The notes under the pieces were generated by a model that saw only the letters and a program-made list of their open reading frames with translations, did not search any database and had not been told where the DNA came from. Both the position numbers and the translations under genes were made by a program. Below, piece after piece: positions 12,918 to 16,303 of a stretch of 64,000 bases of DNA (positions are counted from its first letter, which is position 1; the number at the start of each line of letters is the position of its first letter). Location: positions 1-64,000 of the forward strand of contig JAIQES010000009.1 in NCBI GenBank assembly GCA_020073705.1, in the 5' to 3' direction. Source of the DNA: Terriglobia bacterium (GTDB lineage Bacteria > Acidobacteriota > Terriglobia > Acidiferrales > UBA7541).

Positions 12918-14072
12918 TCAGCGCGCCAAATCGGATGCAAAAACCAGGGTGATGCCCTGGCGCTCGATGCCCGGAAGCATATCGGTGAGGACCTGCAAGG
13001 TTTCCGGATGCGGGTGACCAATGGCCAACGCGGAGCCTTTTTCCCGTGCGTTGCGAACAGCCACGGCGAATTGCTTTCGGATGGCACCGGACGACTGCTC
13101 ATCGTCGAGAAAGACATTGCGCGAAGTGGCCGGGACACCGGCACTATGGGCTGCAGCCTCGGCGACAGTGGCGGCCGTTGTCCGGCTATCGACAAAAAAG
13201 AGATTGCGCTCGTGCAATAACGGCATCAACTCGTTCATCAGCGTGTGGTCGGATGTGCCGAGCGAACCCTCATGATTGTTGACGCCGGCGGCGTATGGGA
13301 CAGTGTCCAGCATGGCCGCCAACGTCTGCCTCACCGTGTTCGAATCCATGCCTGGGCGCAGCTCAATCGGCTCGTCCTTTTCTCCGCCGGTTGAGGCCAT
13401 GGGCAAATGGAGTAGAACCTGATAGCCGCGCCGGTGCGCCTCTTCGGCGATCTCCCCGGAGTCGGGCAGATGCGGGAGCACGGAAAGGGTCAACGGAAAG
13501 GACAGTCGAAACAGGGCGTCGGCCTGGGCGGGGTCGTTGCCGAGATCATCGATCACGATCGCGAGGAGCGGCCGGCGAGACGTGGGTCGTGCGGAGACGG
13601 CAGCGGCGAGCGGCGTAATCAGATGAATCGACTGCGTGCGCCGACCGTCCAGCATGTAATCGAAACGCTCCATGCCGGGAACTCCGGACCGCGCGACGCG
13701 CCGCAGGTGATGAAACTGAGCGACACGGGCTAACTCCTTTTCGATCGCATCGTGCGCGGCCCGGTCCGGCAGGCCCGCGCGGGTGAGCGGCACTGTGATG
13801 TAAATTTGATCGGTGGCGAGCGTTTGGGGCTTGCCGGGTTGGCGCGGGGCATACTCAGGGCGCATTCCGACTTCGGCCCGCCCGCCAGTCGCATTCCGCG
13901 CGGCGAAAACCAGTTCGCGAGTTACGGCGCGGATTTGCGCGGTTGCCGGAGGGGGTTTTTTCTTGCAGCCAGCCGCGCAGATCAGCGCGGCTCCAAGCAG
14001 AAAAAGAAATACAAGCCGTGTGCGGAAAGCACACGCGGCGTGCTGGCGGAAGCCTTCCAAGCCGCGCCTCAC
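12918..14072 (-). CDS. Divergent polysaccharide deacetylase (YibQ-like)
   Basis: 384 aa. The N-terminus has a signal with a lipobox-like end (FLFLLGAALICAAGC), so the product is probably a lipoprotein. After a variable region of about 130 residues comes the NodB-type domain: LLAIVIDDLGNDPAQADALF (the DD pair), LTLSVLPHLPDSGEIAEEAH, VLLHLPMASTGG, VNNHEGSLGTSDHTLMNELM, FFVDSRTTA and a late IGHPHPETL. This set is that of the 'divergent polysaccharide deacetylase' family (E. coli YibQ), whose activity is unproven. The gene starts three bases after the S41-family gene ends. An S41 peptidase next to a yibQ-type gene recurs in other bacteria near cell-division amidase activators, so a role in peptidoglycan remodelling is a fair inference. 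Confidence 0.85.
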   Translation of the reverse strand: MRRGLEGFRQHAACAFRTRLVFLFLLGAALICAAGCKKKPPPATAQIRAVTRELVFAARNATGGRAEVGMRPEYAPRQPGKPQTLATDQIYITVPLTRAGLPDRAAHDAIEKELARVAQFHHLRRVARSGVPGMERFDYMLDGRRTQSIHLITPLAAAVSARPTSRRPLLAIVIDDLGNDPAQADALFRLSFPLTLSVLPHLPDSGEIAEEAHRRGYQVLLHLPMASTGGEKDEPIELRPGMDSNTVRQTLAAMLDTVPYAAGVNNHEGSLGTSDHTLMNELMPLLHERNLFFVDSRTTAATVAEAAAHSAGVPATSRNVFLDDEQSSGAIRKQFAVAVRNAREKGSALAIGHPHPETLQVLTDMLPGIERQGITLVFASDLAR

Positions 14073-14075
14073 ACG

Positions 14076-15296
14076 TCAGGCGGCCTTGCGGGCCTCGCCG
14101 CCCTTGAGCAGTTCGAGCGCCTTGTTGTAAACCGGGTCGTCCGGCGCAGGCAATTGGCCGGGACCCAATGGCGGTGGTCCTGCTGTGTCGCTACTCGCAG
14201 ATGGGTCAAGAAACGTGGGATGCACTTCAACGGTCGGCGCAACGCCTTCGTCCACGATGGACTTGCCTGCGGGCGTGGAATAGAACGCGACCGTGAGGAT
14301 CACGGCTCCGCCATCGTCGAGTGGAATGACTTTTTGTTCGGATGCGGAGCCAAACGTGCGTTCGCCGACCACATCGCCGCGCTTATTGCCCCCAATTGCC
14401 GCGGCCAGGACTTCCGCGGCGCCCGAGGTGCTCGGCGAAATTAGGACGTCCACCGGGGCGCGCCACACGACCTTGTCGGCCTCAGCCGGAAACTCCTTGC
14501 GTGGAACCGTTTGTCCTTCGAGAGAGGTAATCTTGCCGGAAGATAGGAAGAGCTGGGCCGCAACAATCGCATCGGGAACTTGCCCGCGTGTGCAGCCGCG
14601 GAGGTCCAGAACAAGTTTGTGCACGCCCTGCTTATCGAACTGCAGAAGTTTATCGCGCAATTCCGTCACATCCAGGGTCTCGATCGCCGGCAGGCGCACG
14701 TAAGCGACATCCTCGGCGACGCGGTCCGCCACAACATGCTGCGGGCCGATCACGGCGCGGTTGACGCTGACTTCCTGCGGCTCTGACTTGCCGCGCTGCA
14801 CGACGGAGAGATTCACGGCCGTGCCCGGAGCGCCTTGCAAAAGTAGGTTGGCCTGCTCGACCGACATGTCGCGCGTACTAAACCCGCCAATGGCCTCGAG
14901 GATTTCTCCGCTGCGCATGCCAGCCTTCTCGGCCGGACCATCTGGCACAACCGAGACGACGACGATGTAGCCGTAACGCTTTGAGAGCGTCATCCCGGCT
15001 TCACCATGCTGCGCGTTCTTCCTCCGGTCGCGGTAGTCCGCATACTCGCGCGGGCTCAGATATCCGGACAGCGGGTCCAGAGATTCGAGCAGGCCGTGCA
15101 GGGCCCCGGCAGTTACCACAGCCATGTTTGGCTCGTCGACGTAGTCGTCCTGGATGTGCTGCAACACCTCGCCGAACACGCTCAACGAGCGGTAGGTCTT
15201 GTCGTCGCCCGTCTTGCCGAGAACGTAGCCTAAGCCGACATACAGAAACACAACGACGGAAAGGGTGACGATAGCAACTCTTGCGAGGCGGCTCAT
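14076..15296 (-). CDS. S41-family (CtpA-like) protein lacking the catalytic dyad
   Basis: 406 aa. One N-terminal anchor (VAIVTLSVVVFLYVGLGYVLG). A helical region with DDYVDEPNMAVVTAGALHGL precedes a PDZ domain (about residues 95-180: YGYIVVVSVVPDGPAEKAGM, GEILEAIGGFSTRDMS). The peptidase fold follows. In active CtpA proteins the nucleophile lies in 'TASAAEI' and the lysine in 'GEKTFGKGSVQ'. Here these read TSGAAEV and GERTFGSASEQ, so Ser is Gly and Lys is Ser. The rest of the domain is intact, including FYSTPAGKSI and the proline-rich tail. It is likely an inactive scaffold or regulator in the periplasm. It shares an operon with the YibQ-like gene, three bases away. The alternative is that a nearby serine serves as nucleophile, but no lysine is available. 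Confidence 0.85.
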   Translation of the reverse strand: MSRLARVAIVTLSVVVFLYVGLGYVLGKTGDDKTYRSLSVFGEVLQHIQDDYVDEPNMAVVTAGALHGLLESLDPLSGYLSPREYADYRDRRKNAQHGEAGMTLSKRYGYIVVVSVVPDGPAEKAGMRSGEILEAIGGFSTRDMSVEQANLLLQGAPGTAVNLSVVQRGKSEPQEVSVNRAVIGPQHVVADRVAEDVAYVRLPAIETLDVTELRDKLLQFDKQGVHKLVLDLRGCTRGQVPDAIVAAQLFLSSGKITSLEGQTVPRKEFPAEADKVVWRAPVDVLISPSTSGAAEVLAAAIGGNKRGDVVGERTFGSASEQKVIPLDDGGAVILTVAFYSTPAGKSIVDEGVAPTVEVHPTFLDPSASSDTAGPPPLGPGQLPAPDDPVYNKALELLKGGEARKAA

Positions 15297-15382: not shown

Positions 15383-16303
15383 CTAGCGGGACATTGCCGC
15401 TTTGCGTGCAGCCGCCGGCGGCTCATCGACTGCAAAATTTTGAATCGGCGTGAGAAACGTCTGAGAGATGCGGTCTTGCCAGCAGAGATGGTCTTCATCC
15501 CACAGCGCCCACAGGAATCCCAGAAGGCAGGTTCCAGCGGCAACCAGATAACCGAAACTCCTCCACACCATCTGCCGGGATGTTGGTACGCTGCCATCGA
15601 AGCTGACCACGTGCAGTCCGCGAAGCGTCATCCCAGGCGTGGAACCGCCGAAAACCGTGAACAGCGCAAAGTATTGCGCGTAAAACAGTATGAGTGTGAC
15701 AACGGTGACCACGGCGTCTAGCTTATTGAATCCGAGGCGGCCTCCCAGAGCCCAGAACAACGCGAGCATCCCGCCATAGCTGAACAGCAGGAGCGCGGCG
15801 TCCAGCAGTGCTGCAAGTCGGCGTTCGGATAGCGAAGCAACTGGGGAAAAGGCATCCGGTTGCGCTCCGAAACCCGGATGCGCAGCCGCCGCACGATGAA
15901 TTCCTGCAGCCGTGGATGCCATCTCATATCTTGGGATCGAGATCTCGACGCGCTCGGCGCGCTGCCGCCGTTGACGCGGCGGCTGCGCAGCAGGCGCCGG
16001 CGGAACAAATTCAGGGGCGGTGTCAGAATCTTCAACCGAGGGTGCGGAGACAGCCTCAAATGGAAGCGCAGACTGCAACTCAGCGGTTGCACCACCATGG
16101 CGGCGGGCACGATACGCATGAAGCCGGTTGGATACCTCGCGCCGCCATTCGGGCTGGACGGCTAGGTTGCCTTCCGTGCGAGTGACGACGCGACGCGAAA
16201 CAGCGGTCCGCCCCGTATAGCCCAGGGGTGCGTCACAAGAACAGCAAATCTCAGCCGGTTCGCCGTTAACGGCGCCGCAATGCTGGCAGGTTTTTATCAC
16301 CAT
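15383..16303 (-). CDS. RDD-family membrane protein with N-terminal zinc ribbon
   Basis: 306 aa. CQHCGAVNGEPAEICCSCDAPLGY (about residues 6-29; shown split as CQHC...CCSC) is a zinc ribbon. A long variable linker of about 120 residues rich in Pro, Ala and Arg follows. The RDD domain (about 155-290) starts with SERRLAALLDAALLLFSYGG, which holds the R and D of the family name, then two more hydrophobic helices and GSTPGMTLRGLHVVSFDG. A final helix and DRISQTFL end the domain. RDD proteins are small integral membrane proteins; some act as ion antiporters, most are unassigned. No operon partner: it diverges from lptD. Confidence 0.85.
   Translation of the reverse strand: MVIKTCQHCGAVNGEPAEICCSCDAPLGYTGRTAVSRRVVTRTEGNLAVQPEWRREVSNRLHAYRARRHGGATAELQSALPFEAVSAPSVEDSDTAPEFVPPAPAAQPPRQRRQRAERVEISIPRYEMASTAAGIHRAAAAHPGFGAQPDAFSPVASLSERRLAALLDAALLLFSYGGMLALFWALGGRLGFNKLDAVVTVVTLILFYAQYFALFTVFGGSTPGMTLRGLHVVSFDGSVPTSRQMVWRSFGYLVAAGTCLLGFLWALWDEDHLCWQDRISQTFLTPIQNFAVDEPPAAARKAAMSR

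Follow-up and report, generated by a model that had tools for sequence, protein, structure and literature searches.

The window analysed here is a stretch of 64,000 nucleotides from a Terriglobia bacterium of the acidobacterial order Acidiferrales. One of its genes encodes an S41-type protein with a PDZ domain, which we call pseudo-CtpA. The plus strand of 14076-15296 contains several stops, and the reading frame is on the minus strand. The features of the locus are as follows.

12918..14072, minus strand: YibQ/SddA-type divergent polysaccharide deacetylase, 3 nt past the pseudo-CtpA stop (PF04748, 246.5 bits)
14076..15296, minus strand: pseudo-CtpA (S41 and PDZ), 406 aa, with an N-terminal membrane anchor and without catalytic Ser and Lys
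14346..14348, minus strand: codon of Ser317, at the position of the general-base Lys (alignment)
14421..14423, minus strand: codon of Gly292, at the position of the nucleophile Ser, Ser302 of P. aeruginosa CtpA (alignment including the S302A chain)
14583..14597, minus strand: broken oxyanion loop, residues 234-238, G-C-T-R-G replacing N-N-P-G-G (alignment)
14742..15014, minus strand: PDZ domain, about residues 95-185 (Pfam PDZ_6/PDZ/PDZ_2; structural match of 95-185 to the solved CTP PDZ 6bxg)
15021..15200, minus strand: putative counterpart of the N-terminal dimerization region, residues 33-92 (AlphaFold helices 33-51, 58-63, 66-73 and 82-93; CtpA layout as given in the available text of PMC11021448)
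15219..15290, minus strand: N-terminal hydrophobic helix, residues 3-26, a membrane or signal anchor (sequence and AlphaFold helix H3-26)
15383..16303, minus strand: RDD-family membrane protein (PF06271), upstream, a possible operon neighbour

Pseudo-CtpA matched the Peptidase_S41 profile PF03572 at 113.6 bits (cut-off 24), and its PDZ domain, placed before the S41 core as in CtpA-type CTPs, scored above the Pfam cut-off. The match to TIGR00225 (prc, C-terminal processing peptidase), at 192.7 bits, was below the curated cut-off of 218.6. The first-pass annotation had described a protein in which Gly replaces the nucleophile Ser and Ser replaces the general base Lys, the PDZ and the rest of the peptidase fold being intact. 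Alignment with P. aeruginosa CtpA, ungapped across both catalytic sites, bore out the two substitutions: Gly292 pairs with Ser302, and Ser317 with the Lys. The column of Gly292 is where the S302A chain 7rqh departs from the wild-type chain 7rpq, and it is therefore that of the nucleophile. With Gly292 and Ser317, the protein lacks the Ser nucleophile and Lys general base of family S41, while the third active-site residue, Gln321, is retained. The description of the remaining fold stood only in part: the PDZ, the S41 domain and the overall fold are present, but the oxyanion motif R-N-N-P-G-G reads R-G-C-T-R-G, a change that had been missed. Loss of proteolysis by the window protein is well supported by these alignments.

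The same loss was found at almost all of the Acidobacteriota loci read. Acidobacteriota S41 genes were divided into a short class, which includes pseudo-CtpA, and a long class, each gene being assigned to the better-scoring of two HMMs built from sequences of this analysis; L332 and L333 (708 and 722 aa), which were HMM near-ties, and L315 (403 aa, with Ser and Lys) were placed in the long class. The final census, with duplicates merged and the incomplete L008 and L087 excluded, comprised 217 short-family loci from 215 genomes and 61 family codes, out of 226 genomes with any S41 row. Both Ser and Lys were missing at 197 loci, 10 kept one of them and 10 kept both, and in 54 of the 61 families every locus lacked both. 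All ten complete loci belong to a single family, f29; the family as a whole is therefore not uniformly dead. At the nucleophile position Gly predominated (180 loci), followed by Ser (15), Arg (10), Asn, Ala, Gln, His and Trp (2 each) and Lys and Asp (1 each). The Lys position was more mixed, with Leu at 51 loci, Thr at 32, Glu at 19, Arg at 18, Ala at 16, Ser and Lys at 15 each, and others. Likewise, the best 80 of at least 516 relatives were Acidobacteriota loci, and 80 of 80 lacked both residues; the nearest to the window protein among the matches listed were from Candidatus Acidiferrum and other Acidiferrales, and farther ones included Granulicella and Occallatibacter. The idea that the substitution is peculiar to the window sequence is rejected by these counts.

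As to how widely the gene occurs, S41 matches were present in 92 of 95 genomes of the window's order, and at 1e-50 in 183 of 396 sampled phylum genomes. The loci taken from these 183 genomes are a sample (29 class-level and 40 further loci). Among the genomes giving no match, 70 were followed up, and short-type candidates were taken from part of these 70. At 1e-20, G470 (family f6) and the followed-up f7 and f10 genomes yielded long-type S41 only, and G193 none.

The gene is under purifying selection. Against five relatives, dN/dS of the window gene was 0.089, 0.098, 0.091, 0.104 and 0.206, values that are only rough because dS exceeded 1 in all five comparisons. Selection and the breadth of the loss together strongly support the pseudoprotease assignment. 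N235, G237, S292, K317, V320 and D355, invariant in the active paralogue set, are mostly lost in pseudo-CtpA, and the family marks V44, V53, Y79 and T290 are retained; judging by the aligned residues, the losses centre on the catalytic apparatus. Conservation of the PDZ was 0.52 in sequences without Ser and Lys versus 0.62 in the active set, and the N-terminal region, alone among the parts of the family, was no less conserved than in the active set (0.58 versus 0.53). This contrast would fit a role in N-terminal assembly better than one in PDZ peptide binding, but it is only suggestive, because the two sets differ in breadth.

An AlphaFold monomer model of the window protein (pLDDT 82.0, pTM 0.80) is predicted to adopt the CtpA monomer fold with its N- and C-terminal helical regions, with Z of 36-37 over 331-348 residues. 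The best structural match was H. pylori CtpA (9jr1_A and relatives; Z 37.1, 331 residues, 3.1 A), followed by the photosystem II D1 protease (Z 36.5) and P. aeruginosa CtpA (8sxe_B; Z 36.2, 348 residues, 5.0 A). The last is also the best PDB sequence match (7rpq, 8sxe; residues 38-360, E 1.5e-44) and has the same domain order; the window protein differs from it by Gly and Ser in place of Ser302 and Lys and by the broken oxyanion loop. H. pylori CtpA has an active Ser300-Lys325-Gln329 triad (available text of PMC12749690), of which the window protein keeps the Gln position only.

The first-pass annotation had also asked whether a second, active CtpA exists. One with an intact site does, in the same genome, whose two S41 genes are pseudo-CtpA and a 546-aa protein with an intact SASASE/GKG site. 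This long paralogue shares the S41 and PDZ domains and about 31% identity with the window protein; the long type differs by the presence of Ser and Lys (42 of 42 loci) and by a longer C-terminus, most members being about 500-600 aa. Thirty genomes yielded loci of both types.

An unrooted tree of 135 rows placed the entire short family, with f29, on one side of the branch that splits the short and long clades (length 0.67, support 100). Those f29 rows that keep Ser, Lys and NAGG bear the family marks and nest inside the short family, and close f29 relatives have partial or lost sites, reading AK, AK, GK, SR, GR and GR at the two catalytic positions. Regain of all parts of the site is unlikely, and the common ancestor was therefore probably active, with loss coming later. 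From these sequences we infer at least one loss of activity outside f29 and renewed loss within it. An AU test on 44 of the 135 rows did not reject a scenario with only one loss outside f29 (p 0.133), and the additional losses inside f29 are visible in the sequences themselves. An origin of the f29 form by recent gene conversion from the long paralogue is disfavoured, because its STASGAE/YGKSIVQ/NAGG motifs differ from the long-type SASASE/WGKGLVQ/NPGG. In a genome of the window's own family, f1, a second pseudo-CtpA copy with G/D at the catalytic positions (L086, G010:C3:3490-4680) grouped with f5 and Bryobacterales/Solibacter sequences with support 100, a placement that suggests transfer between lineages.

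We then come to the neighbours. The adjoining gene had been read as a YibQ-type deacetylase, rightly so given its PF04748 score; it is the only PF04748 match in this genome. Its IDDLG, HLPM and NNHEG motifs align with 2nly, and the conserved Asp pair and two His residues expected of an SddA are kept. In E. coli SddA, residues D31/D32, H78, H123 and D179 were mutated, and changes in the His residues and the Asp pair abolish activity (available text of PMC12440217). An apparently live deacetylase thus adjoins the dead protease. In the window YibQ, moreover, about 170 N-terminal residues that include a lipobox-like motif precede the deacetylase domain; E. coli SddA, unlike the acidobacterial protein, is described as globular at the N-terminus and disordered in the C-terminal region that follows (PMC12440217, in part).

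Neighbour counts for loci of the window's order are lower bounds, flanks being short for many of them. Among the best 80 of at least 516 relatives, 32 of 36 Acidiferrales loci have YibQ downstream, often 3 nt past the stop, with a lipobox-like start in 23 of these 32 (by a simple regex), and EnvC adjoins pseudo-CtpA in 0 of the 36. Upstream on the same strand, at the place where an EnvC-CtpA-SddA operon would have EnvC, the window has its RDD-type gene, as do 10 of 30 order loci read with flanks of about 1.5 kb. The only M23 match of the window genome, which also has two amidase_3 matches, lies away from the locus; its HTGVD and HVH motifs are presumably catalytic. From the same best 80 of at least 516 relatives, two divergent upstream genes may be recorded for the Acidiferrales: LpxC in 20 of 36 loci (e.g. 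L180/L195) and a nucleotidyltransferase-hexapeptide (GlmU-like) gene in 19 of 36. Among the non-Acidiferrales loci of that set, a PBP1a-type bifunctional protein (PF00912 and PF00905) stands downstream in 33 of 44; a penicillin-binding protein is the neighbour in a sister family.

Of 101 phylum-level genomes, 53 have EnvC upstream and 40 have YibQ downstream, and 27 show the complete EnvC-S41-YibQ order; divergent MltG (YceG) and RuvX genes lay upstream in 19 and 22, respectively. The complete order is that of deep acidobacterial lineages, and the linkage of pseudo-CtpA with YibQ is old. Four EnvC-like ORFs beside pseudo-CtpA (L158, L138, L152 and L159) read, for example, FELR or FEMR at the second LytM metal motif, which we take to be HxH in active EnvC-like proteins. 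This motif being apparently missing, a second degenerate hydrolase may be encoded in the operon beside pseudo-CtpA. Around the long type, the flanks read contain no member of the neighbour families searched, which sets it apart from pseudo-CtpA.

P. aeruginosa has the operon envC-ctpA-PA5135, PA5135 being the YibQ/SddA orthologue (available text of PMC12569750), and this neighbourhood is the one seen in the deep acidobacterial lineages. Our proteobacterial comparison set consisted of three loci. In Methylobacterium and Shinella, EnvC, CtpA and YibQ follow in the same order with a catalytically intact CtpA, and the Ruegeria record is annotated gpmI - M23 - S41. In the unrooted tree, alphaproteobacterial CtpA grouped with the long acidobacterial type, away from the short family; orthology of pseudo-CtpA to proteobacterial CtpA therefore rests on gene order, not on the tree. 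Shared gene order thus links it with the cell-separation operon's CtpA, despite the tree grouping.

CtpA-type proteases are destroyers of peptidoglycan hydrolases, and EnvC is an amidase activator. Our preferred reading, to which we give a probability of roughly 0.6, is that pseudo-CtpA is the CtpA of the envC-ctpA-yibQ(sddA) operon turned pseudoprotease, binding wall-enzyme partners without cutting them. A scaffold controlling peptidoglycan enzymes, as the first-pass annotation had proposed, would be consistent with the gene order and with the retained N-terminal assembly region and PDZ. The protein would sit on its membrane anchor in the periplasm, assemble like CtpA through the N-terminal region, and bind the C-termini or surfaces of former substrates or partners without cleavage. 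P. aeruginosa CtpA is run by a lipoprotein partner, LbcA, which binds the N-terminal region through which CtpA assembles, and SddA deacetylates denuded glycan strands, with a proposed role in modulating the activation of amidases (PMC11021448 and PMC12440217, respectively, each in its available text). This parallel, the lipobox-like start of YibQ and the N-terminal conservation led us to propose, by analogy, a membrane-anchored pseudo-CtpA that may hold SddA, EnvC or PBP1a. For the window's lineage, the foremost partner would be SddA, the lipoprotein-like deacetylase encoded alongside, which acts on glycan strands stripped by amidases; where EnvC or PBP1a adjoins, these would be the likely partners. 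The net effect would be that septal wall remodelling is positioned or restrained by pseudo-CtpA, proteolysis being left to the longer active CtpA. The steps leading from binding to wall control are conjectural, and as neighbours vary by lineage (EnvC, YibQ, PBP1a, divergent MltG/RuvX), each partner named is a candidate. A bolder version, to which we give somewhat less than even odds, is that the whole phylum converted its cell-separation protease into an assembly of pseudo-CtpA, perhaps ring-shaped, that holds SddA, EnvC or PBP1a, depending on the lineage, and times septal remodelling without destroying them, with f29 preserving the intact form and intermediates.

Dead S41 folds are already known from IRBP; the present case is an inactive CtpA in an Acidobacteriota cell-separation operon. 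In the open-licence PMC literature, outside which most subscription papers lie, we found no description of an inactive S41/CtpA, either from Acidobacteriota or from an EnvC operon. EnvC and Atu2773, a YibQ homologue, are other inactive enzyme relatives of the same operon, from different enzyme families; ATU2773 lacks the Zn ligands and is still in an operon with envC (PMC12440217, in part). With this finding, the operon of the amidase activator EnvC also includes a dead protease. If nearly a whole phylum keeps a non-proteolytic protein at this operon position, binding itself must be useful, and a non-catalytic role of CtpA would become directly testable. Natural controls are available in f29, whose closely related members include intact, half-lost and lost sites, and in the long paralogue, which is intact. 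A further caution is that the activity implied by "S41 family peptidase" annotations in Acidobacteriota will often be misassigned.

Other roles can be envisaged. Pseudo-CtpA may be a decoy or regulatory subunit that competes with the long active CtpA for substrates or adaptors, or co-assembles with it, thereby limiting or guiding proteolysis by the long form. The two types coexist in 30 genomes, and the long one is consistently intact; moreover, only one CtpA per dimer is activated in the P. aeruginosa LbcA-CtpA complex (available text of PMC11021448), so that an inactive subunit is mechanically plausible. We nevertheless regard this as unlikely, since pseudo-CtpA is linked to EnvC, YibQ and PBP1a and not to the long CtpA, whose flanks hold none of the families searched, and since the two clades are deeply split.

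IRBP modules are non-catalytic S41 folds, and IRBP, a eukaryotic retinoid carrier without PDZ, binds lipid. By analogy, the old substrate cleft of pseudo-CtpA might sense or carry a lipid or glycan. The structural matches indeed include IRBP modules (4lur, Z 18.5; 1j7x, Z 17.4), LpxC is the divergent neighbour noted above, and P. aeruginosa CtpA activity may connect to phospholipid transport (PMC12569750, in part). CtpA structures match far better, at Z 36-37 against about 18, the PDZ is retained and most neighbours are peptidoglycan genes, all of which makes a ligand-binding protein of this kind distinctly improbable.

That some other residue pair restores catalysis is very improbable. Such a hidden protease could draw on Thr290 (96%) and Gln321, both retained, and the site is complete in the ten f29 loci. 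Among the 198 sequences without Ser and Lys, no replacement Ser, Cys, Lys or His was conserved at 85% or more in core residues 186-360, where the polar positions reaching that level were D231, R233, T290, E295, R306 and T314. Thr290 itself is the -2 position, occupied by Ser in 98% of active sequences, and the oxyanion loop is broken as well. An alternative dyad was accordingly rejected, no alignment having placed another conserved Ser and Lys in the sequences that miss the pair. A decaying pseudogene, or an annotation or assembly artefact, is scarcely conceivable and is refuted by the dN/dS of 0.09-0.2, the full-length frames in many families and the conserved operon position, even though one class-level orthologue (L110, G399:C17:323284-324525) has an in-frame TGA, possibly a recent loss or a sequence error.

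Finally, a scan of viral contigs returned one pseudo-CtpA locus, with G/A at the catalytic positions, on a contig that IMG/VR lists as viral (L162:3001-4131, IMGVR_UViG_3300047171_000143). A PBP1a-type gene lies about 1.85 kb downstream of it, and since the sequence is nested among class sequences in the tree, the contig is probably host DNA.
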